Made by a program: the position numbers and the translations under genes | Shown: positions 6,782 to 42,501 of the stretch, one piece after another | Numbering within the stretch: position 1 is the stretch's first letter | Layout: every line of letters starts with the position of its first letter | Notes under the pieces: generated by a model | Told to the model about the DNA's origin: nothing | Seen by the model: the letters and a program-made list of their open reading frames with translations, nothing else | Database searches by the model: none | NCBI RefSeq assembly: GCF_000243095.1 | Contig: NZ_AHJE01000071.1 | Span: 1-64,000 of the forward strand | From: Cupriavidus basilensis OR16 | GTDB lineage: Bacteria; Pseudomonadota; Gammaproteobacteria; Burkholderiales; Burkholderiaceae | Direction: 5' to 3' | DNA length: 64,000 bases

Positions 6782-6788
6782 GGCCTAC

Positions 6789-21804: not shown

Positions 21805-21929
21805 AATGGCCCCAATGCGGCCTTGATTTGCTGGTGTTGGACAAGATGCCAGGGCGCAGCAAGCGATTTTGGTAGGATGCAGGCCTTTCCTCGCGCCGGA
21901 ATGTGACTCCGACCAATGTTGCTTGCTTC

Positions 21930-24205: not shown

Positions 24206-24535
24206 TAAGGCAGTCCCACGCATGGCGCGCAACGCGACTTGCCGCTGTGTTCGCTGTCCGCCTTTGATCGTCCACGCCTTCTTGCCTTGGCGCCTGCCTG
24301 GAGCGACCAGTTGCGTTCGCCACATCGCTGCCGTGGGTGCTTCGCAATCCTCTTGCTGATGCGCGCCAAGCTCGCAAGCAGACGCGCAACGCATGCTTCA
24401 AGGGGCTAGGCCGGGCAAGAGCGAGTGGGGCGGAAAGTGGCGTCTGGGCGTATTTTCAAGGGCAAGCTTGCCTGCAGGGCTTGAACTGTGTGCATAAGAG
24501 TTGCTCGTTTCTGCGCATTCCTGAATAATTTGTTC
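24206..24535. other. Gap before the IS607 element
   Basis: A 330-base stretch with no supported gene on either strand. It must contain the left end of the IS607 element, which has no terminal inverted repeats and so cannot be placed exactly. The last 50 bases before tnpA are AT-richer (CTGAATAATTTGTTC) and probably hold the tnpA promoter. Confidence 0.4.
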
Positions 24536-26359: not shown

Positions 26360-26368
26360 GCAGGAATG
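26215..26368 (+). ncRNA. Candidate omega RNA (reRNA) at the right end of the IS607 element
   Basis: In IS200/605 and IS607 elements the TnpB guide RNA covers the 3' end of tnpB and the right end. Here the last codons of tnpB encode a Gly/Ser/Pro-rich tail (EEGSGPGGNAG) typical of sequence constrained by RNA structure rather than protein. Bounds are approximate and the assignment is by analogy. Confidence 0.3.
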
Positions 26369-26604
26369 AGCAAGTCTGACGGAACGGTTCCAGTTCGTCA
26401 CATGTATGCCTATGCTAGAGATCAGAGGGCATTGTCGCGGCCAAGGGTGTACGTATGCCCACGAAGATGGTCTGGCGAGCTGGCAAACGCCCAGGGGTCC
26501 AACCTTGCGTTTGAGGCGAATCTTGATGCGAGCGCTCCGCTTCCGGTCATCAAACAGGAGGGCTATGAACAGGCTGTTGGACTAGGCTTGCTCCTCCTTG
26601 CCCT

Positions 26605-27809
26605 ATGACAGACCGTTCCCCTTTCCCGCCGGGGCGGGCAATCCGCCGCCTGGTCACTATCCGCGTAGCGGGCGCCGCCATGGTGTTGGCGCTATTGGCC
26701 TGTGCCACCTGGTATGCGACCCGGGTCGAGCCTGTGGCGGTGCTGACAGCCAGGGCCGACATGGGGCGGGTCGAGGCCACTGTCGCCAATACCCGCGCCG
26801 GTTCGGTGTCCGCCTGCCGGCGGGCAAAGCTGGCGCCTCCGGCGGCGGGTCGCATCGAGTTGCTGAATATCCGCAAGGGCGATCGCGTGAAGACCGGGCA
26901 GGTCCTGTTGGCACTCTGGAACGAGGACCTGCTCGCGCGTGATCGGCTTGCGCAAGAGCAGTTGCTGACAGCCACGGCGCATGCGCGCGAAGTGTGCGAG
27001 CTGGCCAAGGTGGCGGCCAGCGACGCCAGGCGCGCGCTCGGGCTGGTGGCCAGGGGCTTTGTTTCCTCGCAGGCCTTGGAGCGGGCCGACGCCGACGCCA
27101 GTTCCAGGTCCGCGGCGTGCGAATCCGCCAGGGCCCAGGTGAAAGAGGCCAGCGCGCGTATCGCGGGATCCCGCGCCGATATCGCACGTACGGTCCTCAA
27201 GGCGCCGTTCGACGGCGTGGTGGCCGAAGTGAATGGAGAAATAGGCGAATACCTGACGCCGTCGCCGCCAGGCATCCCGACACTGCCGGCGGTGGACCTG
27301 ATCGACGACTCCTGCCTCTACGTGTCGGCCCCGATCGACGAGATCGACGCGGCGCGCCTGCGGGTGGGCATGCCGGCGCGCGTCACCCTGGACGCCTATC
27401 GCGGCAGGCATTTCGCGGGCAAGGTGCGGCGCGTCGCGCCCTACGTGCTGGCGCAGGAGAAGCAGGCCCGCACCGTCGAGGTCGAGGTGCAGCTCGATAG
27501 CCCGGACCCGGCGCACTACCTGCTCGTCGGCTACAGCGCGGATGTGGAGATCGTGACCGACGCGCACGACCCGGTCTTGCGCCTTCCCACCACGGCCCTG
27601 AGATCAGGCAACATGGCGCTAGTGCTGACCGCCGAGGGCAAGCTGGCGGCGCGCAAGCTCGATACCGGGCTATCCAACTGGGAGTTCACCGAGGTAAAGG
27701 CGGGCCTGGCGCGCGGCGAACGGGTGGTCACTTCGCTGGATCGCGGCGGCGTGCGCGCAGGCGCGGCCGCCGTCGAAGAGCCGCAGGCTGGCACGGGAGG
27801 CACGGCGAA

Positions 27810-27813
<4 letters not shown>
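26605..27813 (+). CDS. Periplasmic adaptor (membrane fusion) subunit, MacA-like
   Basis: A 402-residue HlyD/RND-type adaptor. It has an N-terminal signal anchor (VAGAAMVLALLACATWYAT), a split lipoyl domain (APPAAGRIELLNIRKGDRVK and TVLKAPFDGVVAEVNGEIGE), and a helical hairpin between them rich in Ala/Arg. A beta-barrel domain (MPARVTLDAYRGRHFAGKVR) follows. It bridges an ABC exporter to an outer-membrane channel. The next three genes (ATPase and two MacB-like permeases) overlap or nearly overlap it, forming an exporter operon. The ATG at 26605 lies just right of the IS element, which may have displaced the native promoter. No outer-membrane channel gene is nearby. Confidence 0.85.
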
Positions 27814-28464
<651 letters not shown>

Positions 28465-28471
28465 GTCCGCC

Positions 28472-29680
28472 ATGCGCATCGCCGACGTGTTCGACTTCAC
28501 CTGGCAGGTACTGCGCGGCAACCGCGCACGCAGCCTGCTGATGCTGCTGGCGATGAGCATCGGCGTGGCGGCCGTGGTGACGGTGAGCGCGCTCGGCGAG
28601 GGTGCCAGGCTGTACGTGGTGAACCAGTTCGGCGCGCTGGGCACCAACCTGGTCATCGTGTTGCCCGGGCGCAGCGAAACGGCCGGCGCGGCACCCGGGA
28701 TCGTGCTGGGCGCTACCACGCGCGACCTGACGCTGGACGATGCGCTCGCGCTCAAGCGCAGTCCCGCGGTGGCACGCATCGCGCCGCTGATTGTCGGCGA
28801 CGCCGACTTGCGCGTGGGCGCTCGCCGGCGCGAAGCGCCGGTGCTGGGTTCCACCGCGGAACTGCTTGCGGTGCGTCATATGGCATTGGCCCAGGGCAGC
28901 TTCCTGCCCGAAGGGGATCCCCACCATGGCCAGCCCGTCTGCGTGATCGGCACCAGGGTGGCGGCGGAGCTGTTCGGCGCGCGCCCGGCCCTGGGTGAGT
29001 GGCTGCGCATCGGCGACCGGCGCTTCCGCGTGATCGGGCTGCTGGCGGGGCAGGGCGAGTCGCTGGGCTTCAATACCGATGAGATGGTGATCGTGCCGCT
29101 GGCCGCGGCCCAGGCCCTGTTCAATACCGACTCGCTGTTCCGTGTGCTGATCGAAGCCAGGAGCCGCGAGCAGATCCAGCACGCGAGGGCCGACGCCGAG
29201 GAGATCATCCGGCAGCGCCACGAAGGCAAGCGCGACGTGACCGTCATCACCCAGGACGCGGTGCTGGCCACGTTCGACCGCATCCTGCGGGCACTCACCC
29301 TGGCAGTGGGCGGCATTGCCGCCATCAGCCTGGCCGTGGCCGGCATTCTCATCATGAACGTGATGCTGATTGCCGTGACCCAGCGCAGACAGGAGATCGG
29401 GCTGCTCAAGGCACTCGGCGCCACCGCCGGCCATATCCGGCTGCTCTTCCTCACCGAGGCGGTGCTGCTGGCGCTCGGCGGCGCGGCGACGGGCCTGGCG
29501 GTGGGCGAGGCGGGCTGCCGCCTGGCCACCCGGCTTTATCCGGCGATTCCGTTCACCGCGCCCTGGTGGGCCTTGCTGGCCGCACCGGCCACCGCGGTGG
29601 TGGCGGCGGTGGTGTTCACGGTGGCGCCGGCACGGCGCGCGGCCAGCCTGGACCCGGTGCAGGCCTTGTCGCGGAGATGA
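28472..29680 (+). CDS. MacB-like ABC transporter permease 1
   Basis: A 402-residue FtsX/MacB-type permease. It has one N-terminal helix (SLLMLLAMSIGVAAVVTVSA), a large periplasmic domain (GEWLRIGDRRFRVIGLLAGQ) and three C-terminal helices with GGIAAISLAVAGILIMNVML and the conserved RRQEIGLLKALGAT coupling segment. In MacB one chain holds ATPase and permease; here the functions are split. It probably pairs with the second permease (29677-30882) as a heterodimer, since the genes overlap ATGA and share the architecture. The ATG at 28472 lies 7 bp after the ATPase stop. Confidence 0.87.
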   Translation: MRIADVFDFTWQVLRGNRARSLLMLLAMSIGVAAVVTVSALGEGARLYVVNQFGALGTNLVIVLPGRSETAGAAPGIVLGATTRDLTLDDALALKRSPAVARIAPLIVGDADLRVGARRREAPVLGSTAELLAVRHMALAQGSFLPEGDPHHGQPVCVIGTRVAAELFGARPALGEWLRIGDRRFRVIGLLAGQGESLGFNTDEMVIVPLAAAQALFNTDSLFRVLIEARSREQIQHARADAEEIIRQRHEGKRDVTVITQDAVLATFDRILRALTLAVGGIAAISLAVAGILIMNVMLIAVTQRRQEIGLLKALGATAGHIRLLFLTEAVLLALGGAATGLAVGEAGCRLATRLYPAIPFTAPWWALLAAPATAVVAAVVFTVAPARRAASLDPVQALSRR

Positions 29681-30882
29681 GCATGCGCTACGCCGACTTC
29701 ATCCGTTTTACGCTCGCCTCGCTGGCCGCCCACCGGCTGCGCACCTTCCTCACCGCGCTGGGCATTGCCGTTGGCATTGCCGCGGTCATCCTGCTGACCT
29801 CCATCGGCGAAGGACTACATCGCTACGTGATCAAGGAGTTCACCCAGTTCGGCACCAATCTGATCGGCGTGACACCGGGGCGCACCCAGACCCACGGCGC
29901 CTCGCTCGGGTCGATCAACACGGTGCGCCCGCTTTCCATCGAAGACGCCTCCGCCCTGGGCCACGTCCCCCACGTGCGCGTGGCCAATCCCCTGGTCCAG
30001 GGCAATGCCGAAATCGACTACCTCGGCAAGAGCCGGCGCGTTACCTTGTATGGCGTCGGGCACCGCTTTACCGAGGCGCTGAGCATGCGCGTGGCCGCGG
30101 GCCAATTCCTGCCCGACGACGATCCGCGCGCCGCACGTACCCTGGCCGTGCTCGGCGCAACCGTGGCGCGCGAACTCTTCGGCAGCAACAACCCGCTGGG
30201 CGCACGCGTGCGTGTCGGCGGGGAGCGCTATCGCGTCATTGGCGTCATGCAAGCCAAAGGCCAGATGCTAGGCTTCGACCTGGACGATACCGTCTATATT
30301 CCGGCGGGCCGCGCGCTGGACCTGTTCAACCGGGAAAGCCTCGTGGAAATCGAGGTCACCTATGATCCGACGGCCCCGCTCGCCGAGGTCGAGGCAGGCA
30401 TCAAACGTGTGTTGAGCGCGCGCCATGGCGGTGAGGACTTCACCGTCACGCCGCAGCAAAAGATGCTTGATGTGTTTGGCGCAGTGCTCGACGCCATCAC
30501 CTTCGCGGTCGCGGCGATCGGTGCCATCTCGCTGGTGGTCGGCGGGGTGGGGATTCTCACCATGATGACCATCGCGGTGGCCGAGCGCACGTCGGAGATC
30601 GGTCTGCTGCGCGCCGTTGGCGCAACCCGGCGCCGGGTCATGTTGCTCTTTCTTGGCGAGGCGGCGGTGCTGGCAGCCGCCGGCGGCATGGCGGGACTGT
30701 TGCTGGGGTGGAGCCTCGCCCTATTGCTTGAAGCCGCGTTGCCGGCCCTGCCGGTCCATACCCCATGGTCATATGCCGTGCTTGCCGAGCTGGTGGCGGT
30801 CGTGGTCGGCCTGGCTGCGGGCGTCCTGCCGGCGCGCAAGGCAGCGCGGCTTGATCCGCAGGAGGCGCTGCGTTCCGAGTAG
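29677..30882 (+). CDS. MacB-like ABC transporter permease 2
   Basis: A 401-residue FtsX/MacB-type permease with the same plan as its neighbour. It has an N-terminal helix (TFLTALGIAVGIAAVILLTS), a periplasmic MacB_PCD domain (LGARVRVGGERYRVIGVMQA) and C-terminal helices with GAISLVVGGVGILTMMTIAV and RTSEIGLLRAVGATRRRV. Its start overlaps the previous stop (ATGA at 29677-29680), indicating coupled translation. The exporter probably moves a lipid, peptide or siderophore-like molecule from the inner membrane or periplasm; nothing here fixes the substrate. It ends 54 bp before a convergent LysR gene. Confidence 0.87.
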   Translation: MSMRYADFIRFTLASLAAHRLRTFLTALGIAVGIAAVILLTSIGEGLHRYVIKEFTQFGTNLIGVTPGRTQTHGASLGSINTVRPLSIEDASALGHVPHVRVANPLVQGNAEIDYLGKSRRVTLYGVGHRFTEALSMRVAAGQFLPDDDPRAARTLAVLGATVARELFGSNNPLGARVRVGGERYRVIGVMQAKGQMLGFDLDDTVYIPAGRALDLFNRESLVEIEVTYDPTAPLAEVEAGIKRVLSARHGGEDFTVTPQQKMLDVFGAVLDAITFAVAAIGAISLVVGGVGILTMMTIAVAERTSEIGLLRAVGATRRRVMLLFLGEAAVLAAAGGMAGLLLGWSLALLLEAALPALPVHTPWSYAVLAELVAVVVGLAAGVLPARKAARLDPQEALRSE

Positions 30883-30936
30883 GCCGCGCGGGTCGATCCT
30901 GCCCGCCGAGTATCGTGTCCGGGCGGCGCCCGGCGC

Positions 30937-31842
30937 TCAGGCGAGCCGGGCGTCACTCCTGATCGCGCGGCGGAAGAGCTCGGCAAACCGTGTTGCGGCT
31001 AGCGAGAGCGGATTGTCGCGCAAGGTAAGGATGCCGAGCGTGATTGGCGGCAGGGACATGGCCAGCGGGATGCGGCTGACCTGGTCGCCATACGGCGCTG
31101 TCTTCAGCATGCCGGCAGGGCAGGTCAGCAGGGCATCGCTGCGCGTCAGCAGGTTCCAGCCCACGCCAAAGGTATTGACCTTGATGATGCGGCGGGGCCG
31201 GGCGAGTCCCGCTTCGCGGATGTTCTCCAGGAAGTGCGTGTGCTGACTGCCTGGCGACAGGTACATCAGCCACTCGCATTCCAGCAATTCGCTCCATTGC
31301 GTGGCGTTTTCCAGCGGATGCCCGCGCCGGCAGGCCAGCATCGTATCGAGGTCGAGCAGCGGCTCGAAACTGAAGTCGCTCCCGATCGATTCGCGCACTG
31401 GCGCAGCCACGGCAAAGTCCACCGCGCCTTCGCGCAGGGCCGGCAGCACCATGGGCATCAGTCCTTCATCGATCGTGACGTCGGCCAGGGGCATGCTGAG
31501 CCGGAAGGATCGCATCACCTCCGGCAGGACACTGAGGAACGCCATCGGCGTGACCGCCACCGCGACGCGTGCGGAGTTGCCCCCCTGCAGCTCACGGATA
31601 TCCTGGCGCGCCAGCGCAAGCTGCGCCTGTGCCATGCGGGCTCGCGAGGTGAGCTGATGCCCGCACTCGGTGAGGGTCACGCCGCGTGAACTGCGCACGA
31701 CCAGCGGCGCATCGAGGTCCTCTTCCAGTTCTTTTACCGCCTTCGTGATGGCCGCCTGGCTCAGGTGCAGGCTACGCGCGGCGGCGCGAATGCTGCCGGT
31801 TTCGACGAGCCGCAGCCAGGCTTTCAGGTGATGGTCTTTCAT
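30937..31842 (-). CDS. LysR-type transcriptional regulator
   Basis: A 301-residue LTTR. The N-terminal winged HTH reads LKAWLRLVETGSIRAAARSL and LSQAAITKAVKELEEDLDAP; the C-terminal effector domain starts near residue 90 (ARVAVAVTPMAFLSVLPEV). It resembles regulators next to tripartite-receptor and catabolic genes. It points away from the Bug receptor at 31857, as usual for an LTTR and its target. However, only about 14 bases separate its start codon from receptor coding sequence, so the shared promoter is missing from this sequence. Confidence 0.88.
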   Translation of the reverse strand: MKDHHLKAWLRLVETGSIRAAARSLHLSQAAITKAVKELEEDLDAPLVVRSSRGVTLTECGHQLTSRARMAQAQLALARQDIRELQGGNSARVAVAVTPMAFLSVLPEVMRSFRLSMPLADVTIDEGLMPMVLPALREGAVDFAVAAPVRESIGSDFSFEPLLDLDTMLACRRGHPLENATQWSELLECEWLMYLSPGSQHTHFLENIREAGLARPRRIIKVNTFGVGWNLLTRSDALLTCPAGMLKTAPYGDQVSRIPLAMSLPPITLGILTLRDNPLSLAATRFAELFRRAIRSDARLA

Positions 31843-31856
31843 GGCGTTTCCGGTTC

Positions 31857-32744
31857 CGCCCGATCAAGCTGATCGTGCCCTATGCGGCAGGCTCGGGGGT
31901 CGACGTCACCATGCGCCCCATCGCCGAAGTCATGGGACGGGAGCTGGGCCAGCCGGTGGTGCTGGACAACCGCGGCAGCGCGGGCGGCATCGTCGGCACG
32001 CAGGTGCTGGCCGCTGCGGCGCCGGACGGCTACACCATCGGCTATGGCAACCTGGTCACGCTGGCCATCAACCGCGCCTTCTACACCAAGCTGCCCTACG
32101 ACCCGGAGAAGGACATCGAGCCGGTCGGGCTGGCCGTGAGCAACGCCTACGTGCTGATCGCGCGCAAGGACTTCCCGGCCAGCAACCTGGAGGAACTGAT
32201 TGCCTATGCCCGCAAGCATCCCGGCAAGGTGGTCATGGGCTCGCCTGGGGTTGGCTCCGCGGGCCATCTGGCAGGCGAGCTGATCAAGAGCAGCACCGGC
32301 ACCGTCATGCTGCACGCGCCGTACAAAAGCGGTGCCCAGGCGCTCGGCGACATGGTCAACGGGCAGGTCGACATCATGATCGACAACATTTCCGGCGTAC
32401 TGCAGTTCGTGCAGTCCGGCCGCGTCAAGCCGCTCGCGGTCACCAGCTTGCAACGCGCCTCGGTATTGCCCAATGTGCCGACCATCGACGAGAGCGGCAT
32501 CAAGGGATTCAATGTGGTCGCCTGGGGTGGCGTGGTCGCTCCGGCGGGCACGCCCAAGGCGGTGATTCGCAAGCTCAATGCGGCGCTGAACAGCGCCCTC
32601 CGGGATCCCGCGGTGATACGGGCCAACGCTTTGCTGTCGGTGGACGCGATGCCCTCTACGCCCGCCGAATTCTCGACATTGATCCATAGCGAGGTGCCGA
32701 AGTGGGCTGAGAGCGTCAAGCGCGCCGGGGTCAGGGCAGATTGA
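31857..32744 (+). pseudogene. Bug/TctC-family receptor, 5'-truncated (no signal peptide)
   Basis: A tripartite tricarboxylate receptor of the Bug family, recognised by [48 protein letters not shown] and the C-terminal LIHSEVPKWAESVKRAG. Bug proteins are periplasmic and bind carboxylates or aromatic acids. The homologous reading begins at about 31857, mid-domain. The signal peptide and mature N-terminus are missing, and the frame upstream runs straight into the divergent LysR start. The first usable codon is GTG at 31875, giving 289 residues without an export signal. TctA/TctB permease genes are absent, which is common for Bug receptors in these bacteria. Confidence 0.82.
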
Positions 32745-32798
32745 AGCGCACATGCCCGCCGTCGCGGGCAAATGCAGGGACCAAAGGGAGGAAGTCCG

Positions 32799-34212
32799 AT
32801 GAGCAATGAAATCTGGCGCTGGAGCGCTGTTGACCTGGCCAGCCGTATCCGGCTTCGCGAGGTGTCGTGCGAGGAGGCCGTTGCCAGTTGCCTGGATCGG
32901 CTTGACCAGGTGAATCCGCAGATCAACGCCGTGGTGGAAGTGCTGGCCGCGCAGGCGATGGAGGCGGCGGCACTGGCCGACGCCGCGCTGGCAAGGGGCG
33001 AGCCGGCCGGCCCCTTGCATGGTGTCCCGGTCACGGTGAAGGTCAACGTGGACCTGGAAGGCTGCGCCACCACTAACGGGGTGGGCGCCTACCGCGATGT
33101 GCTGGCCCGCGCCGACAGCCCGGTGGTGGCGAACCTGCGCAAGGCGGGTGCCATCGTCATCGGCCGCACCAATACGCCGGCGTTTTCGATGCGCTGGTTC
33201 ACCGATAACGATCTGCATGGCCGCACGGTGAACCCGTGGGACCCGGAGCGCACGCCTGGCGGCTCCAGCGGCGGCGCCGCGGCCGCGGTGGCGGCGGGCA
33301 TCGGGCCGCTTGCCCACGGCAATGATCAGGGCGGATCGATCCGCTATCCCGCCTATGCCTGTGGCGTGCCCGGACTGCGGCCAAGCCTGGGCCGGGTACC
33401 GGCGTTCAATCCGTCGCAAGCGAAGGAGCGCACTCTCGGCATGCAGATCAGCTCGGTGCAGGGACCACTGGCGCGACAGGTCGCGGACCTGAGGCTGGGT
33501 CTTGCCGCCATGGCGGCCGGATCCAAGGGATCCCTGGTGGGTACCGGCGCCGCTCGATGGCCCGGTGCGGTTTCCCGTGCGCGTGGCCGTTTGCGCTGAA
33601 CTGCCGGGTTACGCGGTCTCGCCAGCGGTGGCCGGCGCGGTCAGGCAGGCGGCGCATTGGCTGGAGCAGGCGGGCTGCACGATCGAGGAGGTGGCCCCGC
33701 CGCGGCTGCGCGAGGCGGCGGACTTATGGCTTGCGCTGACCCTGAACGAGGCGGGGGCCGGGGTGCGCCAGGCCGTCGAGCAGGATGGCGACGACCCCAT
33801 GCGCAAAGCGTTCGCAAGCATGAACTGCCACGCGCCACAGCTAGGCTTGACGCAATACATGGCCGCGCTGTCGCAGCGCTCCACCTTGCTGCGCGAATGG
33901 CAGGCGTTCCTTGCGCGCTATCCGCTGCTGCTCTTGCCGGTCTCGTGGCAGCTGCCATTCCCCATCGATGCGGACCAGAAGGGCGACGACGCGATGCGCT
34001 GGATCCTCGACGCGCAAAGCCCGTTGCTGGCCACCGCCATCCTGGGCCTGCCCGGGCTGTCGGTGCCGACCGGGCTGGTGGAAGGCGTGCCGATGGGCGT
34101 GCAACTGGTCGCGGGCCGCTTTCAGGAGGAATTGTGCCTGGCCGGCGGCGAGGCGATCGAGGCGCGCGCCAGCTGCGGGGTGCCGGTGGATCCGCGCCGG
34201 GCGGGACAATGA
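32799..34212 (+). pseudogene. Amidase-signature family hydrolase, frameshifted
   Basis: An amidase (GatA/acetamidase family). The Lys of the Ser-cisSer-Lys triad is in LHGVPVTVKVNVDLEG, the Gly/Ser-rich loop is PGGSSGGAAAAVAAG, and the nucleophile Ser is in NDQGGSIRYPAYACG. Near 33516-33521, right after LGLAAMAA, the frame is lost; the sensible continuation (DPRDPWWVPAPLDGPV) is in the next frame and ends at 34212 with GVPMGVQLVAGRFQEE. The junction carries CGGCCGG. The ATG at 32799 follows GGGAGGAAGTCCG. Amidases commonly sit behind Bug receptors in catabolic loci; the substrate is unknown. Confidence 0.83.
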
Positions 34213-34571
34213 CCGGGTCGTGACCGGGCAAGGGCTACCGGCATGAGCCGGCAGCACGACGCCATAACGAGCGCCCGTCAGTCCCCCCGGCGCTCGTCTG
34301 CGCATGCGCAAGCGGGAGCGAGCCATTGCATGGCATCCCGCACCCACCGTCAGCGCCGCAAAGCAGGCAGGACCCCCCTTGTTTGCCAGCCGCCCGGCAC
34401 CGCGCGCGTGCTGTTGCGGTTCACTTCGCTTACCATAGCGGTTTGACTAGCGGTATCCCTGTATGGCGACCCGGCCGGCTCGGCCGTTGCGTTCCCGCAA
34501 TGCAATGTGCGTGAACCGGCGCTAGTATGCGAGCCGTGCGGCAGTTTCCCTGCCGGTGGACCTTTTCCCAG
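34213..34571 (+). promoter_or_regulatory. Intergenic region upstream of the phosphonate operon
   Basis: A 359-base region with no supported gene. It contains a hairpin at 34268-34296 (CGAGCGCC/GGCGCTCG, 13-base loop) that could end amidase transcripts, though no T-run follows. Further right, around 34400-34520, it should hold the promoter for the phosphonate operon; I could not assign -35 and -10 boxes with confidence. Confidence 0.4.
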
Positions 34572-35252
34572 ATGAACAAAAATCCAAAGAACTCACACGG
34601 CGAGCCTCCCGCCCCGCGTACCTGGGACGCCCGTCTGGCGCGCGCGCTGGTGCGCCCGCTCAAGGACTCCTGGGTCACCCCGAACCACCTGACCACCCTG
34701 CGGCTCGTGATCGGCCTTGCCGGGGTAGCCTGCCTGATGCAGGGCGGTTTCGCGTGGACCAATTACGGTGCGCTCCTCATTGTGGTGTCCAACTTCGTGG
34801 ACCACACTGATGGTGAATTGGCGAGAATTAGCGGAAAATCCAGCAAGATAGGTCATTTTTATGACCTGGCGAGCGATGCGTTGATTACCGTCCTGTTGTT
34901 TGTGGGCATGGGCGTAGCCATCTCGGGGCAGGCCGCGGCAGACACCATGCCGCCCGTCTTGCAAGGCACGCTCGCGGGTGTGGCGGTGGCGCTGATTTTC
35001 TTCCTGCGCATGCGGATCGAGTCGCGCGTGGGGAAAAGCGGGACGAAGCAGGCATCTGCAGGTGGTTTCGAGACGGAAGACGTGCTTTACCTGCTTCCGC
35101 TCGTCACGCTGACCAGCGGCATCGCACCGTTCCTGATGGCGGCGTCGATCGGTGCTCCCCTGTTCGCAGCCTGGGTCATCATCGATTACTGGCGTGTGAT
35201 GCGGCGTCCCCTGCCGGCCACGGCTTCGACGGAGATCCGAGGAACCCGATGA
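34572..35252 (+). CDS. CDP-alcohol phosphatidyltransferase family protein
   Basis: A 226-residue integral membrane enzyme with the complete family signature DG-x2-AR-x8-G-x3-D-x3-D. It is seen as DGELAR, then GHFYDLASD, at about residues 80-103. Membrane segments flank it (RLVIGLAGVACLMQGGF, ALITVLLFVGMGVAIS, GTLAGVAVALIFFL and others). These enzymes transfer a phosphoalcohol from a CDP-activated donor to a hydroxyl acceptor, releasing CMP. As first gene of a phosphonate operon that also encodes nucleotidyltransferases, it most likely joins CMP-aminoethylphosphonate to a lipid. That reaction is inferred. Start ATG at 34572 (MNKNPKNSHG). It overlaps the next gene by ATGA. Confidence 0.87.
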   Translation: MNKNPKNSHGEPPAPRTWDARLARALVRPLKDSWVTPNHLTTLRLVIGLAGVACLMQGGFAWTNYGALLIVVSNFVDHTDGELARISGKSSKIGHFYDLASDALITVLLFVGMGVAISGQAAADTMPPVLQGTLAGVAVALIFFLRMRIESRVGKSGTKQASAGGFETEDVLYLLPLVTLTSGIAPFLMAASIGAPLFAAWVIIDYWRVMRRPLPATASTEIRGTR

Positions 35253-36091
35253 GCGAGCAATCCAACGACATCACGCTGGACGACCCGCGCCCCGTTTCAG
35301 CGAATCCCCGCCAGACGCCCGCCCCGGAACCTGCCGCCGGCACCAGGCTGCCCGATGCCGACGCCTCGGTGGCCGAGCGCACGGCCCGGCTCGACAGCAA
35401 CCAGCTGCGTGCCGATTTCGTGCGCCAGGGCGCCTTCCTTCACCTGGAGGCGTTCCTGGCGCCGGAGGTCACTGCGCAACTGGTGGCCAGCGCCCGCGCG
35501 CTGGTGCCGCAGATCAACCGCAACTACCTGCCCGGCCACAAGCAGGGTGGCAGCGTCAGCCGGCATACCATCGACGAGCTCGCGCCGTTCATCGCCGAGC
35601 TGTACCGGTCGAAGGCGCTGATCGGCTGGCTCGAGCAGATGTGCGGCGAGAAGCTGCAGGTCTCCCCCGACTCCGATCCCCACGCCTACGCGCTGTATTA
35701 CTACACGCGCCAGGGTGACCACATCGGCTGGCACTACGACACCTCCTACTACGACGGCCGCCGCTACACGCTGCTGCTGGGCGTGATCGAGGAATCCTCC
35801 TGCCGCCTCGACTACGAACTGCACACCCGCGACGCGGAAGTGCCCGATGCGCCCGGTTCGGTGCAGACCACCCCCGGCGGGCTGGTGTTCTTCGATGGCG
35901 ACAAGCTGCGCCACCGCATCACGCCGTCCGGCGCCAACGAGATGCGGGTGTCGCTGACCTTCGAGTACGTCACCGATCCGGGCATGCGCCCGTGGCTGCG
36001 CTTCATCTCCAACATGAAGGACGCGGTCGCGTATTTTGGCTTCAGGCAGGTATTCAAGAGACTGGTGTCGGGCCAGAAGCCCCGCCCATGA
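35249..36091 (+). CDS. Fe(II)/2-oxoglutarate-dependent oxygenase in phosphonate operon
   Basis: A 280-residue protein with a variable N-terminus (about 45 residues) and a double-stranded beta-helix core. The iron ligands are visible as HxD in HIGWHYDTSYYDG (about residue 157) and a distal His in FFDGDKLRHRITP; the Arg in EMRVSLTFEY is the likely 2-oxoglutarate contact. The Asp in HxD argues for hydroxylation rather than halogenation. Embedded by 4-base overlaps in a phosphonate operon, it probably oxidises the phosphonate head group or its lipid. 1-Hydroxy-2-aminoethylphosphonate head groups are known in nature, but this activity is only inferred here. Confidence 0.8.
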   Translation: MSEQSNDITLDDPRPVSANPRQTPAPEPAAGTRLPDADASVAERTARLDSNQLRADFVRQGAFLHLEAFLAPEVTAQLVASARALVPQINRNYLPGHKQGGSVSRHTIDELAPFIAELYRSKALIGWLEQMCGEKLQVSPDSDPHAYALYYYTRQGDHIGWHYDTSYYDGRRYTLLLGVIEESSCRLDYELHTRDAEVPDAPGSVQTTPGGLVFFDGDKLRHRITPSGANEMRVSLTFEYVTDPGMRPWLRFISNMKDAVAYFGFRQVFKRLVSGQKPRP

Positions 36092-37095
36092 CCCGTGCCG
36101 CAATGCTTTTCCTGTCGATCGGCGCGGCGCTCTTTGTCGCGCTGCTCGCCTGGCAGGGATTCGGCTCCGTCGCGTCGACGTTCATGTCGGCCGGCTGGGG
36201 CCTGGTGCTGGTCGCCGCGTTCCACCTGCTGCCGCTGGTGCTGGACGCCGGCGCCATCTTCGTTTTGTTCGAGCGCCGGGCCGGCCATGCCACCATGCGC
36301 GACGCGCTGCTGGCGCGCTGGGCCGGCGAGTCCGTCAACAGCCTGCTGCCGGCGGGGCAGATCGGCGGCCCGGTGCTGATGGTGCGCTACCTGGCGCAGC
36401 GCGGCACGCGCATGCGCGACGCCGCCGCGGCCATCACGGTGAGCACCACCATGCAGGCGCTGGCACAGATGGTGTTTGCCTTTATCGGCCTGGCGCTGTT
36501 TGGCCTGTACGGCGGGCACGGCGCGCTGTCGGACCTGCGCACGCCGACCCTGGTTGTCACCGCTGTGCTTGCGCTATGCATCGCGGGTTTCTACGTGGTG
36601 CAGAAGCGCGGCCTGTTTGGCCGGGTGCTGCGCTTGCTGTCGAAGGTATTCGGCAAGCGCGACTGGTCGGGGTTGACCATGCGCGCTGATGCCGTGGACG
36701 CGGCCGTGCAAGGGATGTACCGCGACCGCCGCAAGGTGGCGTCCACCTTCGCGCTGAGCCTGGTCGGCTGGCTGGTCGGCACCGGCGAGGTCTGGCTGGC
36801 CCTGCATTTCCTCGGGCATCCCGTCAGCTGGCTCGACGCCTTGCTGCTGGAGAGCGTCGGCCAGGCGATTCGTGGCGCGGCGTTTGCCATTCCCGGCTCG
36901 CTGGGCGCGCAGGAAGGCGGCTACCTGTTGCTGGCTCCCATCGTCGGCCTTCCGCCCGATGCGGCGCTGGCGCTGTCCTTGGCCAAGCGTGCCCGCGAGA
37001 TCGGGCTCGGCGCGCCCGGGCTGCTGTATTTACATTTGAGTGAACGAAAATTCCAACGGCGGCGTGCAGCAGGTGTGCAGCAGGTCGCCGATTGA
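36088..37095 (+). CDS. Flippase-like (LPG synthase TM / UPF0104) membrane protein
   Basis: A 335-residue protein with about eight hydrophobic helices and the family features ARWAGESVNSLLPAGQIGGP, AFAIPGSLGAQEGGYLLLAP and GLPPDAALALSLAKRAREIG. This AglD/MprF-like transmembrane family is associated with flipping or modifying lipid-linked products. Here it overlaps the oxygenase gene (ATGA) and precedes the nucleotidyltransferase. It could translocate the phosphonolipid, or a lipid precursor, across the inner membrane. This same gene type appears in hopanoid and other lipid clusters, which supports a lipid rather than an exopolysaccharide product. Confidence 0.8.
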   Translation: MTRAAMLFLSIGAALFVALLAWQGFGSVASTFMSAGWGLVLVAAFHLLPLVLDAGAIFVLFERRAGHATMRDALLARWAGESVNSLLPAGQIGGPVLMVRYLAQRGTRMRDAAAAITVSTTMQALAQMVFAFIGLALFGLYGGHGALSDLRTPTLVVTAVLALCIAGFYVVQKRGLFGRVLRLLSKVFGKRDWSGLTMRADAVDAAVQGMYRDRRKVASTFALSLVGWLVGTGEVWLALHFLGHPVSWLDALLLESVGQAIRGAAFAIPGSLGAQEGGYLLLAPIVGLPPDAALALSLAKRAREIGLGAPGLLYLHLSERKFQRRRAAGVQQVAD

Positions 37096-37127
37096 TCGAT
37101 GGCAATTTGCGTGGGTGCGGAGAACGA

Positions 37128-37892
37128 ATGCGAGCAATCATCCTTGCCGCAGGCCTAGGCCTGCGACTTCAGCAACAACCCGGGGAGCAATTCCCCAAGT
37201 GCCTGTTGCGTTTTGAGGGCATCACCTTGCTGGAGCGGCATCTGCGCATGCTCGACGCGGCTGGGGTGGACGAGATCGTGCTGGCGCTTGGCTTCCAGCC
37301 GGAACACGTCGAGGCCGAGCTGGTGCGGCTGGGGCGCGACCCCTATCCGGAAATCGTGCTGAACCCGCGTTACGACCTGGGCAGCGTCCTGACCGTGCAC
37401 ACGGTGGCCGATGCGCTCACGCGCGGCGGCGATGTCCTGCTGATGGATGCGGACGTGCTCTACGACGAGCGCATCCTCAGCGCGCTGGTGGCGGGCGGCA
37501 CGACCAATCGCCTCTTGATCGACCGCGATTTCGAAGCCGGCGACGAACCCGTCAAGCTGTGCCTGAAGGATGGCGTGCCGGTGGAGTTGCGCAAACAGCT
37601 CGCGGTTGGCCTGGCGTACGACACCATTGGCGAGTCGGTCGGTTTCTTCCGCTTCCAGGAGCAAACCGCGCGCCGCCTGGCGCAGATCGTCCAGGGCTAT
37701 GTCGACAGCGGCCGCTCGAACATGCCGCACGAAGAAGCGGTTCGCGACCTGCTGCTCGAAGGCGGCCACGTATTCGATGTCGCCGACGTGAGCGGCGCAC
37801 CGTGGATCGAGATCGATTTCCCGAACGACGTGGCGCGCGCGCGCGACGAAGTCCTGCCCGAACTTCAGCCGATTGTGGGAGTAGCACAGTGA
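37128..37892 (+). CDS. Nucleotidyltransferase (phosphonate or phosphocholine type)
   Basis: A 254-residue NTP-transferase with the sugar/choline-phosphate nucleotidyltransferase fold. The N-terminal nucleotide loop is [12 protein letters not shown], the Lys is in [13 protein letters not shown], and acidic metal ligands are in [13 protein letters not shown] and [12 protein letters not shown]. The family includes LicC-type CTP:phosphocholine and PntC-type CTP:phosphonate cytidylyltransferases. In this operon it most likely makes CMP-aminoethylphosphonate as donor for the CDP-alcohol transferase. The ATG at 37128 follows GGAGAACGA. Its stop overlaps the pepM start (GTGA). A second, fused nucleotidyltransferase domain follows, so the division of labour is open. 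Confidence 0.83.
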
Positions 37893-39463
37893 ACGCGATT
37901 GACCCGATTTTCTCGACTGCCTCGCGCAGCGCCCGCCTGCGCCAGATGATTGTCGGCAACGAGCTGGAATTCATGATGGAAGCCCACAACGGGCTGTCCG
38001 CGCGCATCGTGCGCGAGGCTGGTTTCAAGGCCATCTGGGGTTCGGGCCTGGCAATCTCCGCCCAGTACGGCGTGCGCGACAACAACGAAGCCAGCTGGAC
38101 CCAGGTGGTCGACACGCTCGAGTTCATGGCCGACGCCAGCGACCTGCCGATCCTGCTGGACGGCGACACCGGCTACGGCAACTTCAACAACGTGCGCCGC
38201 CTGGTGCGCAAGCTCGAGCAGCGCGGCATTGCCGGCGTCTGCATCGAGGACAAGCAGTTTCCCAAGACCAACAGCTTTATTGACGGCGAGCGCCAGCCGC
38301 TGGCCGAGATCGATGAGTTCTGCGGCAAGATCAAGGCCGGCAAGGATTCGCAGTCGGACGACAACTTCTCCATCGTCGCCCGCGTGGAAGCCCTGATCGC
38401 TGGCTGGGGCATGGACGAAGCCCTGCGCCGCGCGGAGGCCTATCGCCAGGCCGGCGCGGACGCCATCCTGATCCACAGCAAGCTGTCGCGCCCGGACGAG
38501 ATCCTGCAGTTCGCGCGCTAGTGGGCCGGCCGCGGCCCGCTGGTCATCGTGCCGACGAAGTACTACAGCACGCCGACCGAAGCCTTCCGCAAGGCGGGCA
38601 TCAGCGTGGTGATCTGGGCCAACCACCTGATCCGCGTGGCGGCATCGTCGATGCAGGCCGTGGCCAAGGAAATCCACGACAGCGAAACGCTGGTCAACGT
38701 GGAAGACCGCATCGCCTCGGTCAACGAGATCTTCCGCCTGCAGGACGCCGACGAATACTCGAGCGCCGAAAAGATCTACCTGTCCGGCTCGCAAGCACCG
38801 GGCGCGGCGGTAGTGCTGGCGGCCGGCCGCGGCACCGGGCTCGAGCCCCTCACCGAGGACCGTCCCAAGGTCATGCTGCCCGTGGCCGGCAAGCCGCTGC
38901 TGCGCTGGCTGGTGGATGCATTCAAGAAGCAGTCGATCAACGACATCACCATTGCCTACGGCGACCTGCTGTTCCGCAGCTATATCCTGCGGGATCTGCT
39001 GGAGAGCGACGCGCCGTTCAGCGTGGTGGTGGACTCGTCGCTGACCACGGAGTCGAACCAGAGCGTGCGCGATTTCGCCCATTGCTCCGCGCCCGACGAC
39101 CGCGACCTGTTCGGCCAGAAGATCCTGCTGCGCCGTGTGTCCAGCGAGGGCCAGGAGCCGGGTGCTGGTCAAGCGCAGGCGCCGCATGGCCGCTGGATCG
39201 GCCTGCTGAACGTGCGCGGCGAAGGGCGCGTGCGCCTGCAGAAGCTGGTTGCCGAACTGCGCAAGCGCGACGACTTCAATACGCTGGACATGCCCGCGCT
39301 GCTCAACGCGCTGGTCGAAGCCGGCGAAGAGATCGAGGTGAAATATGTGCACGGCCACTGGCGCGGCGTGAACGACCTGGACGACTTCCGCCGCGCGGGA
39401 GATTTCGCGCATACGCAGACGCCGTTCGCGGTTGGCCCCACGGATGACGAGGAAGCCCGATGA
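37889..39463 (+). pseudogene. pepM: Phosphoenolpyruvate mutase fused to nucleotidyltransferase, interrupted by in-frame TAG
   Basis: PEP mutase converts phosphoenolpyruvate to phosphonopyruvate, the entry step of C-P bond biosynthesis. The signature [10 protein letters not shown] is present near residue 120, plus [17 protein letters not shown]. Codon 211 (38519-38521) is TAG. The same frame then continues without a gap (AGRGPLVIVPTKYYST and so on), so it looks like a single substitution, probably of a GAG codon. From about residue 305 a second domain begins (AVVLAAGRGTGLEPLTEDRP), a nucleotidyltransferase ending at 39463. Its loop reads GRGTGLEP where GxGTRL is usual. The GTG start overlaps the previous stop; the end overlaps the decarboxylase (ATGA). 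Without readthrough only a truncated mutase is made. Confidence 0.87.
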
Positions 39464-40561
39464 TCGAAGCGGCACAATTTGTCGAGGCCGCGCGCGCGCG
39501 GGGCTTCGACTGGTATGCCGGGGTGCCCTGTTCGTATCTCACGCCGTTCATCAACTACGTGATGCAGGACCCGTCGCTGCACTACGTGTCGGCGGCGAAC
39601 GAAGGCGATGCGGTGGCGCTGATCGCCGGCGTGACGCTGGGCGCGCAGGGCGGCCGCCGTGGCGTCACCATGATGCAGAACTCCGGCCTGGGCAATGCGG
39701 TCAGCCCATTGACGTCGCTCACGTGGACGTTCCGCCTGCCGCAGTTGCTGATCGTGACCTGGCGCGGGCAGCAGGGCGTGGCTGACGAACCCCAGCACGC
39801 GCTGATGGGTCCGGTCACGCCGACGATGCTCGACACCATGGAAATCCCGTGGGAGACCTTCCCGACCGACCCGGCCGAGGTTGGCCCGGCGCTGGATCGC
39901 GCGGGAGCGGCCCACGCCGCGCCCGAAGTGCACACCGCAGTCGGAGCCGCAGGGTGCTTCGCCCGATGGCCTGCCTACGCGCCGCGACGCGCTGCAGCGC
40001 GTGATCGCGCATACGCCGATGGACAACACCGTGGTGCTGGCATCGACCGGCTTCTGCGGGCGTGAGCTCTACGCACTCGATGACCGTGCCAACCAGCTCT
40101 ATATGGTGGGTTCGATGGGCTGCCTCACGCCCTTCGCGCTAGGCCTCGCGCTCGCACGTCCGGACCTCAAGGTGGTCGCGGTGGACGGTGATGGCGCAGC
40201 GCTCATGCGCATGGGCGTGTTCGCCACGCTCGGCGCCTATGGCCCGGGCAACCTCACGCATGTGCTGCTCGACAACGGCGCCCACGACTCCACCGGCGGC
40301 CAGGCGACCGTGTCGCACCACGTCTCGTTTGCCGGCGTGGCGTCCGCCTGCGGTTACGCGTCGGCGGCCGAGGGCGACCATCTCGACCTGCTTGACCAGG
40401 CACTGTCCGGCGCCGCGCCCGCGCGTGCCGCCGGCCCGCGTTTTGTCGCGCTGACGATCAGTGCCGGCACGCCGGACGGCCTGCCGCGCCCAACCATCAC
40501 CCCGGTCGATGTGAAGACGCGCCTGGCGCGACACATCGGTGCCGACCAAGGAGGGAAGTAA
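39460..40561 (+). pseudogene. ppd: Phosphonopyruvate decarboxylase, internally deleted/frameshifted
   Basis: A ThDP-dependent enzyme that decarboxylates phosphonopyruvate to phosphonoacetaldehyde, pulling the mutase reaction forward. The N-terminal (PYR) half is intact: GFDWYAGVPCSYLTPFINYV, AANEGDAVALIAGVTLGAQG, MMQNSGLGNAVSPLTSL. The C-terminal ThDP half is in another frame: GSMGCLTPFALGLALA, VDGDGAALMRMG, LTHVLLDNGAHDSTGG. Between about 39903 and 39950 the text is GC-rich junk and a linker of about 20 residues expected before SEPQGASPDGL is missing. A small deletion plus frameshift is therefore likely. The stop is immediately followed by the aminotransferase ATG. Confidence 0.85.
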
Positions 40562-41626
40562 ATGCTGCTACTCAATCCGGGACCCGTTACCCTGTCGGAA
40601 CGTGTCCGCCAAAGCCTGCTGCAGCCCGACCTGTGCCATCGCGAAAGCGAGTTCTTCGACCTGCAGGACGAAGCGCGCGCGCGCCTGCTGGACATCTACG
40701 GACTGGATCCCGCCGAGTGGGCCGCGGTCCTGATGACCGGCTCCGGCACGGCGGCGGTAGAGAGCATGATCGCCGCGCTGGTGCCCGAGCAAGGCAAGCT
40801 GCTGATCGTCCAGAACGGCGTGTACGGCGAGCGCATTACGCAGATCGCCACGCAGTACCGCATCGCCCATGAGGTGGTCGCGCACGACTGGATGCAGGCG
40901 CCTGATCTTGCCCGCATTGCCGCCGCGCTCGACGCGGACCGCGCGATCACGCATGTGGCGGTGATCCATCATGAAACCACCACCGGCCGCCTGAACGACC
41001 TCCAGGCACTCGACGCACTGTGCCGCGCGCGGGATGTGCGCCTGCTGGTGGATGGCGTCAGCAGCTTCGGCGCCGAGGCGATCGACTTCGGCGGCAGCAT
41101 TGCCGCGGTGGCGGCCACGGCCAACAAGTGCCTGCACGGCGTGCCGGGCGCATCGTTCGTCATGGTGCGCCGCAGCGCGCTGGAGCAAGCCGCCAGCCGC
41201 ACGTACTACCTGGATCTGGGCCGGCTTGCGCGCCTGCAGGACCAGCGCAACACGCCGTTTACGCCGTCGGTGCATGCCTATTACGCACTGGTGGAGGCGC
41301 TGCGCGAGCTGGAGGAAGAGGGCGGCTGGCGCGCCCGCCATGCGCGCTATGCGGCCCTTGCGGAACGCGCCCGCGCCGGGCTTGAGGCCCTGGGCATGCC
41401 GGCCCTGTGGCCGTCGGACCAGTCCTCGGTGGTGCTGCGGGCCTACCGCTTGCCGGCCGGCTTGTCGTATCCCCAGCTGCACGACGGGCTGAAGGCGCGC
41501 GGTTTTGTCATCTATGCGGGGCAGGGCGGGCTGTCGGCCGAGTTGTTCCGCATTTCCACGATGGGCAATATCAAGATGGATGACATCGAGCGCCTGCTGC
41601 AGGGCTTCAAGGCGCTGACGCAGTAA
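40562..41626 (+). CDS. phnW: 2-aminoethylphosphonate:pyruvate transaminase
   Basis: A 354-residue class V PLP aminotransferase. The start MLLLNPGPVTLSERVRQSLL, the HRESEFFDL block, TGSGTAAVESMIAAL, IHHETTTGRLNDLQAL and the PLP Lys in ATANKCLHGVPGASF (about residue 188) are typical of AEP transaminases. In a catabolic setting it degrades AEP; next to PEP mutase and phosphonopyruvate decarboxylase it runs in the biosynthetic direction, giving AEP from phosphonoacetaldehyde. A strong AAGGAGG precedes the ATG. It is the last gene of the operon and is intact. Confidence 0.9.
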   Translation: MLLLNPGPVTLSERVRQSLLQPDLCHRESEFFDLQDEARARLLDIYGLDPAEWAAVLMTGSGTAAVESMIAALVPEQGKLLIVQNGVYGERITQIATQYRIAHEVVAHDWMQAPDLARIAAALDADRAITHVAVIHHETTTGRLNDLQALDALCRARDVRLLVDGVSSFGAEAIDFGGSIAAVAATANKCLHGVPGASFVMVRRSALEQAASRTYYLDLGRLARLQDQRNTPFTPSVHAYYALVEALRELEEEGGWRARHARYAALAERARAGLEALGMPALWPSDQSSVVLRAYRLPAGLSYPQLHDGLKARGFVIYAGQGGLSAELFRISTMGNIKMDDIERLLQGFKALTQ

Positions 41627-41634
41627 TTGCCGGT

Positions 41635-41661
41635 TGGCCGGCACGCAACGCGTACCGGCCA
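41635..41661 (+). terminator. Terminator-like hairpin after the phosphonate operon
   Basis: Stem TGGCCGG/CCGGCCA (7 bp, 13-base loop) begins nine bases after the transaminase stop codon and is followed within six bases by GTTTTCGTCATTTTATTTTT. It separates the phosphonate operon from the MlaC-like gene, although readthrough cannot be excluded. Confidence 0.6.
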
Positions 41662-41770
41662 CTGTCGTTTTCGTCATTTTATTTTTGGCGGCAAAGCACT
41701 AGCATTAGGCAAGAGATGCCGGTAACCGGGCTCCCCGGGCAACCGCATACCGCTAGTGGAGGACATCGCG

Positions 41771-42463
41771 ATGCCTCGCCATCTCCGTCTTCGCCTTCGC
41801 CTTGCCATTGCGGGAGGCAAGGCCGTGGCGCTTGCGGTTTGCGCTGGTCTTGTCTTTATCGCGGGTGCATCCTTCCCTATCTCCGCGCCGGCCGCGACGC
41901 CTGGCGAGAGCCCCGCGGCCGCAGGCGTGGACCGCTCCTCGCCGGACCGCATGGTCCGCGCCGCCGTCGAAGGCGTCCTCGCCACCATCCAGGCCAACCC
42001 CGACACCCGTAACGGCGATCTCGACAAGATCACGGCCGTGGTGCGCCAGCAGTTCCTGCCTTATACCGATTTTCAACGCACCACCCGGCTTGCGGTCGGC
42101 AGCGCGTGGCGCAGTGCTACGCCTGAACAGCAGAAGCAGCTTTACGAACAGTTCCAGACGCTGCTGGTGCGCAGCTACGCCTTATCTCTCTCGCAAGTGC
42201 GCGAGCAGGCGCTGAAGTTTCGCTACAAGGCACCGCGCACCAGTGGGAATGATGTGGTGGTGGAAACCAGCGTGCTGAATAAGGGGGATGAGGTGAAGAT
42301 TGATTATCGGCTGCAGCGGGGGGCGGCTGGGTGGTCGATTTACGATATTAATATGAGTGGGGCTTGGTTGATTGAGGTTTATCGCCGGCAGTTTGCCGAT
42401 ATTGTGGCTAAGGGCGGGATTGAGGGGCTGGTTAAGTATCTGGCTCGTCATAATGCGGCGTGA
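41771..42463 (+). CDS. MlaC/Ttg2D-family periplasmic lipid carrier
   Basis: A 230-residue protein with an N-terminal export signal (ALAVCAGLVFIAGASFPISA), preceded by a basic stretch, and the MlaC fold: VRQQFLPYTDFQRTTRLAVG, QLYEQFQTLLVRSYA, SIYDINMSGAWLIEVYRRQF. MlaC-type proteins ferry phospholipids across the periplasm. It stands alone, without MlaFEDB, directly after the phosphonate operon, so it could move the phosphonolipid; this is inferred from position. The ATG at 41771 has GGAGG nine bases upstream. The last 75 codons use unusual T/G-ending codons and are strongly C-depleted, unlike the first half. Confidence 0.87.
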   Translation: MPRHLRLRLRLAIAGGKAVALAVCAGLVFIAGASFPISAPAATPGESPAAAGVDRSSPDRMVRAAVEGVLATIQANPDTRNGDLDKITAVVRQQFLPYTDFQRTTRLAVGSAWRSATPEQQKQLYEQFQTLLVRSYALSLSQVREQALKFRYKAPRTSGNDVVVETSVLNKGDEVKIDYRLQRGAAGWSIYDINMSGAWLIEVYRRQFADIVAKGGIEGLVKYLARHNAA

Positions 42464-42465
42464 GG
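42240..42465 (-). promoter_or_regulatory. C-rich, G-poor strand (candidate Rho-utilisation site) behind the GGDEF-EAL gene
   Basis: The plus strand here has about 89 G and 29 C in 223 bases by hand count. A transcript reading leftward out of the convergent gene at 42502 would thus be about 40 percent C and 13 percent G for over 200 nucleotides and carry many YC steps. That is the classical Rho loading signature. It overlaps the 3' end of mlaC on the opposite strand. Confidence 0.45.
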
Positions 42466-42501
42466 TACCCCGCGTCGTTTAATGGCCGTATGGGGCCTTC
42501 T

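Follow-up and report, generated by a model that had tools for sequence, protein, structure and literature searches.

The element described here is an operon at positions 34572-41626 of the window, that is, of the whole 64,000-nucleotide stretch of Cupriavidus basilensis OR16 that was analysed (contig C346 of a draft genome of 8.5 Mb in 416 contigs). It is composed of seven genes in one direction: cpt, coding for a transferase of the CDP-alcohol (CDP, cytidine diphosphate) phosphotransferase class, the gene of an Fe(II)/2-oxoglutarate (Fe/2OG) oxygenase, hpnL, ntp (nucleotidyltransferase), pepM (phosphoenolpyruvate (PEP) mutase), ppd (phosphonopyruvate decarboxylase) and aept (2-aminoethylphosphonate (AEP) aminotransferase). 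In several genera of two bacterial classes this operon is genetically linked to hopanoid genes, a new connection that suggests a phosphonate-bearing hopanoid not previously described. Our reading, to which a rough probability of 0.58 is given, is that many Burkholderiaceae and some Alphaproteobacteria make phosphonohopanoids, in which the side chain of a bacteriohopanepolyol would end in AEP (hydroxylated in Burkholderiaceae) and a dedicated HpnL paralogue would act as flippase. The operon is called here an 'AEP-hopanoid' module, whose acceptor is probably a hopanoid. An earlier note on this DNA had proposed an AEP head group placed on a membrane lipid; this stands in outline, but a hopanoid is a more likely acceptor than an ordinary phospholipid, because the flippase belongs to the HpnL family and because of the linkage to hopanoid genes in two classes.

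In Mycetohabitans rhizoxinica the operon is followed at its 3' side by dxs, two hypothetical genes, an MMPL transporter gene (HpnN-type by homology), an MlaC/HpnM-type gene, ispH, hpnH, hpnA and the genes of a glycosyltransferase and a phosphorylase (HpnG model 193, cut-off 187), and then by shc and hpnD. Homologues of these downstream genes follow the operon in the same order in the genomes G092 and G168 (genus g10) and G016 (genus g16). Besides, homologues of hpnN and hpnM flank the operon in G015 and G036 (g15) and in G006 (g6), and an hpnN homologue does so in a lichen betaproteobacterium (locus L057). Among the 110 family genomes carrying both cpt and pepM, hpnH lies at 30 kb or less from pepM in 23 (18 of 19 in g10, two of four in g7, three of three in g16 and none of 84 in the other genera). 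The hypothetical genes of the Mycetohabitans locus (L084) are situated upstream of the AEP operon (9164-9752) and between dxs and the MMPL transporter gene (21407-23144).

The second class is represented by the alphaproteobacterium Roseomonas marmotae, where the module lies within a hopanoid locus on plasmid p1318-3 with a different gene order: MlaA (VacJ family), HpnN, an unannotated gap, polyprenyl synthetase, ntp, pepM, ppd, HpnL, AEPT (AEP aminotransferase), cpt, a hypothetical gene, ispH, hpnH, hopanoid-associated phosphorylase, shc, hpnE, hpnD, hpnC, glycosyltransferase and hpnA. PepM, Ppd, AEPT, HpnL, HpnN (TIGR03480), HpnH and HpnG of this locus score over the model cut-offs; the HpnN equivalog NF052374 (1090.5 vs 1100) and the model for MlaA are not reached, and the cpt product is 37% identical to that of the window (tblastn E 2e-19). 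In the distant genome G535, HpnN (over the cut-off of TIGR03480, below that of NF052374), cpt, HpnL and AEPT lie next to each other on one contig, while pepM, ppd, an MlaA-like gene (below the model cut-off) and a second HpnL gene are found on another; HpnH is also present in this genome. Azospirillum thermophilum was set aside, its ppd being in another kind of cluster that has no annotated hopanoid genes.

The distribution of the genes is consistent with this linkage. In 200 Burkholderiaceae genomes, cpt was found in 112, a PEP mutase over the cut-off in 111 and both in 110 (G190, with a PEP mutase match below the cut-off, is left out of the 111, and extra matches in G083, G161 and G162 are not counted as genomes). 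The earlier note called the envelope unusual for a betaproteobacterium; the operon itself is common in the family. All the genomes with cpt belong to the 135 with HpnH (112/135), and cpt is missing from the 65 that lack it (0/65). A Fisher test on 200 related genomes overstates their independence, so the weight is placed on genus g20, on a sample of the phylum and on the second class. In g20, a genus Paraburkholderia-like by inference, the operon is split into a cpt-oxygenase-hpnL-ntp unit (L133, L135, L155, L156) and a pepM situated elsewhere, and all 17 of its genomes with both genes have cpt and pepM on different contigs or over 10 kb from each other. Among the 21 g20 genomes in the matches listed (genus labels cover only genomes with some match), three lack both genes and only one, G065, departs from the pattern by having cpt alone. 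This joint retention of cpt and pepM without linkage supports their belonging to one pathway. Related to this, pepM-ppd-aept forms a three-gene unit in Paraburkholderia xenovorans (L012). As a separate observation, the cpt-oxygenase-hpnL-ntp unit is followed by a gene like those of major facilitator superfamily transporters in L133, L155 and L156, and also by a gamma-glutamyltransferase-like gene in L133 and L155 (both named by eye).

In the phylum sample, a PEP mutase was found in 19 of 395 genomes and cpt in seven of 398 (window protein as query, E 1e-20), all seven being among the 19. Within those 19, a cpt-subfamily match (more than 120 bits with profile A1) is present in seven of the eight genomes with HpnH and in none of the 11 without it (Fisher p = 1.6e-4, and 0.033 for the 14 genomes outside Burkholderiaceae); against this result it counts that profile A1 contains rows of G535 and G485, whose scores are consequently high partly by construction. 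The window protein alone, which is an independent test, gave 132 and 93 bits for these two genomes. In G485, cpt, the PEP mutase gene and HpnH are on separate contigs. Both genomes have a second cpt-like gene (L175 in G535 and L177 in G485, with 127 and 146 bits for profile A1), which in the sequence read is near neither pepM nor hpn genes.

The context of hpnL is the third line of evidence. HpnL matches over the cut-off occur in 134 of the 200 family genomes, many of them with more than one match; the window's genome has two besides that of the operon. Forty HpnL loci were compared (29 genomes and eight genera, hand-picked from the best-scoring listed matches and thus not random; the 30 short loci L089-L118, the loci fetched for cpt and the second HpnL of G535 form no part of this set). 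The neighbour of hpnL was cpt in 14 of them, hpnI with hpnK undetected in seven, and hpnK in 19, of which 18 had hpnI too and L136 is cut by the start of its contig; in six of the 40 loci, curated models bore out the identity of HpnI or HpnK. A tree of 60 HpnL rows (those of 68 matches with no stop, at least about 230 residues and at least 60 bits; L190 is not a row) placed the 31 HpnLs of AEP operons on one side of a branch with support of 100/100. The remaining Burkholderiaceae rows also fell into separate groups by context: seven hpnI loci, twelve hpnK loci outside genus g1 and seven main-cluster loci of g1. The placement of the three rows from G535 and Roseomonas, which are long branches, is uncertain. 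From the neighbours and from these groups by context, the AEP operon appears to be one more head-group module, with an HpnL of its own. The possibility that the operon HpnL is the canonical one of the hopanoid cluster was ruled out by its separate group in the tree; those of seven Cupriavidus-like main clusters share 32-36% identity with the HpnL of the Mycetohabitans operon. The genes hpnIJKL have been described as a cluster in Burkholderia cenocepacia (available part of PMC5472815), and the function of hpnL is stated as not established in the consulted portion of PMC12583986. It would follow from the phosphonohopanoid reading that HpnL paralogues in general are head-group-specific hopanoid flippases.

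Regarding the operon of the window itself, all its genes are on the plus strand and each could be assigned to a family. The first one, cpt (34572-35252, with an alternative start of its open reading frame (ORF) at 34527), matches PF01066 with 51 bits (cut-off 22) and has the complete motif D-x2-D-G-x2-A-R-x8-G-x3-D-x3-D, invariant in eight aligned sequences, which we take to be the signature of CDP-alcohol phosphotransferases of class I. Its AlphaFold2 model (mean pLDDT, the per-residue confidence score, 83.6) matches AF2299, PgsA1 and IPCT-DIPPS, a fold that reveals neither donor nor acceptor. The oxygenase gene (35249-36091) is of HalD/BesD type (PF23169, 41 bits, cut-off 26), and hpnL (36088-37095), which codes for a hopanoid-associated LPG_synthase_TM/flippase-like membrane protein, scores 352 bits with TIGR03476 (cut-off 196). 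The ntp product (37128-37892, alternative start TTG at 37092) is a LicC/PntC-like nucleotidyltransferase (PF12804, NTP_transf_3, 49 bits, cut-off 27). Its best match in the PDB was 6pd1 (E 5e-9), described as a nucleotidyl transferase/class V aminotransferase protein and presumably from Treponema denticola; LicC (1jyk) was matched as well. The interrupted pepM (37889-39463) codes for a PEP mutase fused to a nucleotidyltransferase domain; with one TAG read through it reaches 398 bits with TIGR02320 (cut-off 319.55), and the EDKxxxxxNS motif of PEP mutase is present in its translation. The closest matches of the N-terminal part were 'Burkholderiaceae bacterium 16' (98%) and Cupriavidus basilensis (96%). 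The gene ppd (39460-40561) is read in two frames, the halves of which score 181 and 239 bits with TIGR03297 (cut-off for the whole, 312.5), and aept (40562-41626) reaches 401 bits with TIGR03301 (cut-off 361).

These assignments agree by homology with the transferase, the oxygenase, the flippase-like protein and the nucleotidyl activation genes (ntp near pepM plus the fused domain) that had been named in the earlier note. That note spoke of seven overlapping genes, and they are indeed seven and co-directional, with five of the six junctions overlapping by 4 bp or abutting; nevertheless, hpnL and ntp are separated by 32 bp unless the TTG at 37092 is the start (4-bp overlap), and both pepM and ppd are interrupted. 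The route from PEP to AEP that it described is likewise found by homology, with those two interruptions in it. At least 80% of the operon stretch is held in one place by 14 plasmid or chromid records from other Burkholderiaceae (about 72-79% DNA identity), a conservation far beyond chance.

In the pathway proposed for the family, PepM and Ppd would convert PEP into phosphonopyruvate and then into phosphonoacetaldehyde, from which Aept would form AEP. The stand-alone ntp product, a proposed AEP cytidylyltransferase, the domain fused to PepM, or both, would then activate AEP to CMP-AEP (CMP, cytidine monophosphate). Cpt, the proposed transferase of activated AEP to the lipid, would move the phosphonyl group of AEP to a hydroxyl of a hopanoid with a side chain, in the simplest case the terminal one of bacteriohopanetetrol. 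Further, the operon's own HpnL paralogue would flip the product across the inner membrane, and HpnN, with carriers of HpnM/MlaC type, would export it to the outer membrane. Hydroxylation of the head group by the Fe/2OG enzyme is a probable further step in Burkholderiaceae. The Roseomonas marmotae locus has no such enzyme annotated, which places the oxygenase outside the core of the module.

The oxygenase had few and weak sequence matches in the PDB, all of them halogenases (HalD, BesD and HalB). In the amino-acid halogenases BesD and HalD, Gly or Ala replaces the Asp of the HxD metal motif. The triad HxD..H is kept in the window protein (H162, D164 and H222), HYD and the distal His being invariant in five sequences. 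A halogenase function was ruled out by this Asp and by a score of 27 bits with the BesD equivalog model (cut-off 450). The protein thus appears hydroxylase-like, with AEP or the product as its proposed substrate. Since some of those halogenases act on free amino acids (BesD is named as a lysine halogenase), the substrate could plausibly be AEP or CMP-AEP.

The operon is followed by an eighth gene (41756-42463, plus strand), possibly an associate of it, which codes for a periplasmic lipid-binding protein matching PF05494 with 159 bits (cut-off 26). It scores 84 bits with the HpnM model TIGR03481, below the cut-off of 160, and is consequently named only MlaC/HpnM-like; a homologue is also found 3' of the operon in the loci L004 and L022. 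No tandem repeats were found in 34000-42500. In this genome the operon adjoins only the MlaC/HpnM-like gene and no hopanoid cluster, and hpnH is located on another contig, C224.

The copy of the window carries three lesions. An in-frame TAG is found inside pepM (38519-38521, in the translation of 37889-39463), and comparison with L004, L005 and L022 reveals a 132-bp in-frame deletion in the fused nucleotidyltransferase domain (38950/38951) and an 83-bp frame-breaking deletion in ppd (39903/39904), owing to which ppd is read as two ORFs in different frames. A stop inside the PEP mutase match occurs only in the window's genome among the 111 family genomes over the cut-off. An ORF script found the pepM ORF in 77 of 80 loci with PEP mutase matches, the other three being unrecognised by the motifs used, and the ORF was shorter than 500 residues in one locus (L057), which is situated on a 5.4-kb contig. 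The steps that form the C-P bond are interrupted in the window's genome as assembled, so that the strain may not make the product.

It is nearly an even question whether the operon is a dead remnant in this strain, with decay of pepM and ppd, the remaining genes still intact and no phosphonate produced. This is favoured by the nature of the lesions, which hit both C-P-forming genes, and by the lack of a second PEP mutase over the family cut-off in the genome; replacement of the interrupted pepM by another PEP mutase was ruled out, the other matches in the genome being below that cut-off. Against it, the ratios of nonsynonymous to synonymous substitution (dN/dS) of the pepM and ppd pieces are low (0.03-0.12 versus L004 and L005, and 0.06-0.19 versus L022) and fall inside the span seen for the uninterrupted operon genes (0.04-0.27 and 0.08-0.40, respectively; the L004-L005 value for the C-terminal half of ppd was left out as a codon-mapping artefact). 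In addition, similar losses are seen elsewhere in the assembly. The gene at 21903-24205 is about 190 bp short and changes frame near 23369-23480 when compared with L004 and L022. In the hopanoid cluster of the same genome (contig C224, positions 1-7000, locus L162) the glycosyltransferase gene is frameshifted, the HpnM match is limited to about 93 residues, and about 200 bp lie between the matches for hpnH and hpnM, whereas Cupriavidus-like relatives have about 4.6 kb there with hpnI, hpnK and hpnL; these features reflect either real loss or misassembly. Taken with the low dN/dS, these losses suggest that the lesions of pepM and ppd are either recent decay or assembly errors. In any case, a dead remnant would concern this strain only and is compatible with the hopanoid reading for the operon family.

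Two other features of the window were observed near the operon. An amidase gene (32772-34212) is present as two overlapping ORFs in different frames, each matching part of PF01425, and an IS605-type OrfB with a Cas12f1-like TNB domain (TnpB-like) is encoded at 25160-26359, within a stretch of about 10 kb (23953-34394) that L004 lacks at the corresponding place.

Several points weigh against a phosphonohopanoid as the product. The case for a hopanoid acceptor is built on gene families and context, the copy of the window is itself interrupted, and the fold of cpt is common to enzymes using CDP-diacylglycerol. Within the family, the association with HpnH is confounded with phylogeny and genome size, and 87 of the 110 genomes with cpt and pepM have no hpnH within 30 kb of pepM; outside Burkholderiaceae, only two genomes support the association of cpt with HpnH. 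There are exceptions: G398 has pepM and HpnH and no cpt match, G065 and G173 have cpt without pepM (G173 being in 640 contigs), and in G008 pepM occurs with neither cpt nor HpnH. The 20-kb stretch that holds the second HpnL of G535 (L193) contains neither cpt nor a detected hpnI or hpnK, and pepM is about 6.5 kb away. Finally, on contig C177 of G312, a genome without HpnH, a weak and divergent match to cpt (46 bits) lies some 6 kb from pepM, which means that phosphonate-linked transferases without hopanoids may exist; G312 itself possibly has a phosphonolipid pathway of that kind.

This last match is also in favour of the main rival, a glycerophosphonolipid analogous to phosphatidylethanolamine, in which cpt would transfer AEP or hydroxy-AEP from CMP-AEP to diacylglycerol, while HpnL and HpnN would be shared because the lipid travels, or is co-regulated, with hopanoids. 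Such a product fits the CDP-alcohol class of cpt, whose profile search reaches choline/ethanolamine phosphotransferase 1 (E 3e-4), and also the prediction that most phosphonate clusters make cell-wall phosphonoglycans and phosphonolipids (PMC6697681, in the text available). By itself, however, it predicts neither the location of the module inside hopanoid clusters in two classes, nor the absence of cpt from 65 of 65 HpnH-negative family genomes, nor the finding of cpt or a hopanoid head-group gene next to HpnL in all 40 loci examined, and for these reasons it is considered unlikely. The attachment of AEP to a polysaccharide, to lipid A or to a hopanoid-bearing lipid A, with an undecaprenyl- or sugar-linked acceptor for cpt, is very improbable. 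In its favour, Bacteroides fragilis has a capsular polysaccharide modified with AEP (PMC6697681, same part); against it, no LicD-type gene or polysaccharide cluster was recognised beside the operon in the loci annotated or read, a weak argument as most of the neighbours are unannotated.

If phosphonohopanoids are made, hopanoids, which are bacterial analogues of sterols and geological biomarkers, would carry a C-P head group of zwitterionic character, possibly overlooked in lipid surveys, and a purpose would be given for the PEP mutase genes of many Burkholderiaceae. The C-P bond resists phosphatases, so that a lipid of this kind could matter under phosphate limitation. The linkage also gives hpnL a testable role and provides a target mass: bacteriohopanetetrol esterified with AEP (C37H68NO6P) has a computed [M+H]+ of 654.4857, and of 670.4806 when hydroxylated. 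In the open-access literature searched (most subscription papers being outside its scope), neither a link between hopanoids and phosphonate biosynthesis nor a phosphorus-bearing hopanoid was found; the link is absent from the available parts of PMC5472815, PMC7474880 and PMC10942540. A 2026 preprint on a Burkholderia phosphonate deals with another cluster, and no word starting with 'hopanoid', 'lipid' or 'aminoethyl' occurs in its main text as available (PMC12871164). A search for unknown genes near alphaproteobacterial hopanoid clusters gave no obvious new candidates according to the accessible portion of PMC12583986.

Among known systems, the phosphonyl tailoring (Pnt) pathways of Treponema denticola, Atopobium rimae and Olsenella uli resemble the operon in having a PEP mutase, AEP formation and a LicC-like cytidylyltransferase, and also a nucleotidyltransferase fused to PEP mutase beside a second nucleotidyltransferase (PMC6697681, in the part consulted). 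The neighbourhoods described in that part of the paper contain LicD-like phosphotransferases or glycosyltransferases, whereas the operon contains HpnL together with a CDP-alcohol phosphotransferase and is linked, in relatives, to hopanoid genes. The hpnI and hpnIJK modules of bacteriohopanetetrol are similar in another respect, as an HpnL paralogue stands directly beside the head-group enzymes in the 26 loci without cpt of the 40-locus set (26/26). In those modules HpnI is the enzyme that adds N-acetylglucosamine, and the cyclitol ether is formed by way of HpnK and HpnJ (PMC12583986, as far as its available text goes); the AEP operon would instead add a phosphonate by means of a CDP-alcohol transferase. 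On the other hand, the combination of a cytidylyltransferase with a class I CDP-alcohol phosphotransferase is shared with the choline and ethanolamine phosphotransferases of the Kennedy pathway and with the archaeal IPCT-DIPPS, from which the operon differs in its head group, AEP by inference, and in its proposed acceptor, a hopanoid. Phosphonolipids themselves are known from other organisms, such as the ceramide-AEP of invertebrates and the hydroxy-AEP sphingolipids of Bdellovibrio stolpii. These lipids have the AEP or hydroxy-AEP head group in common with the product proposed here, and their backbone is a sphingolipid or a glycerolipid.

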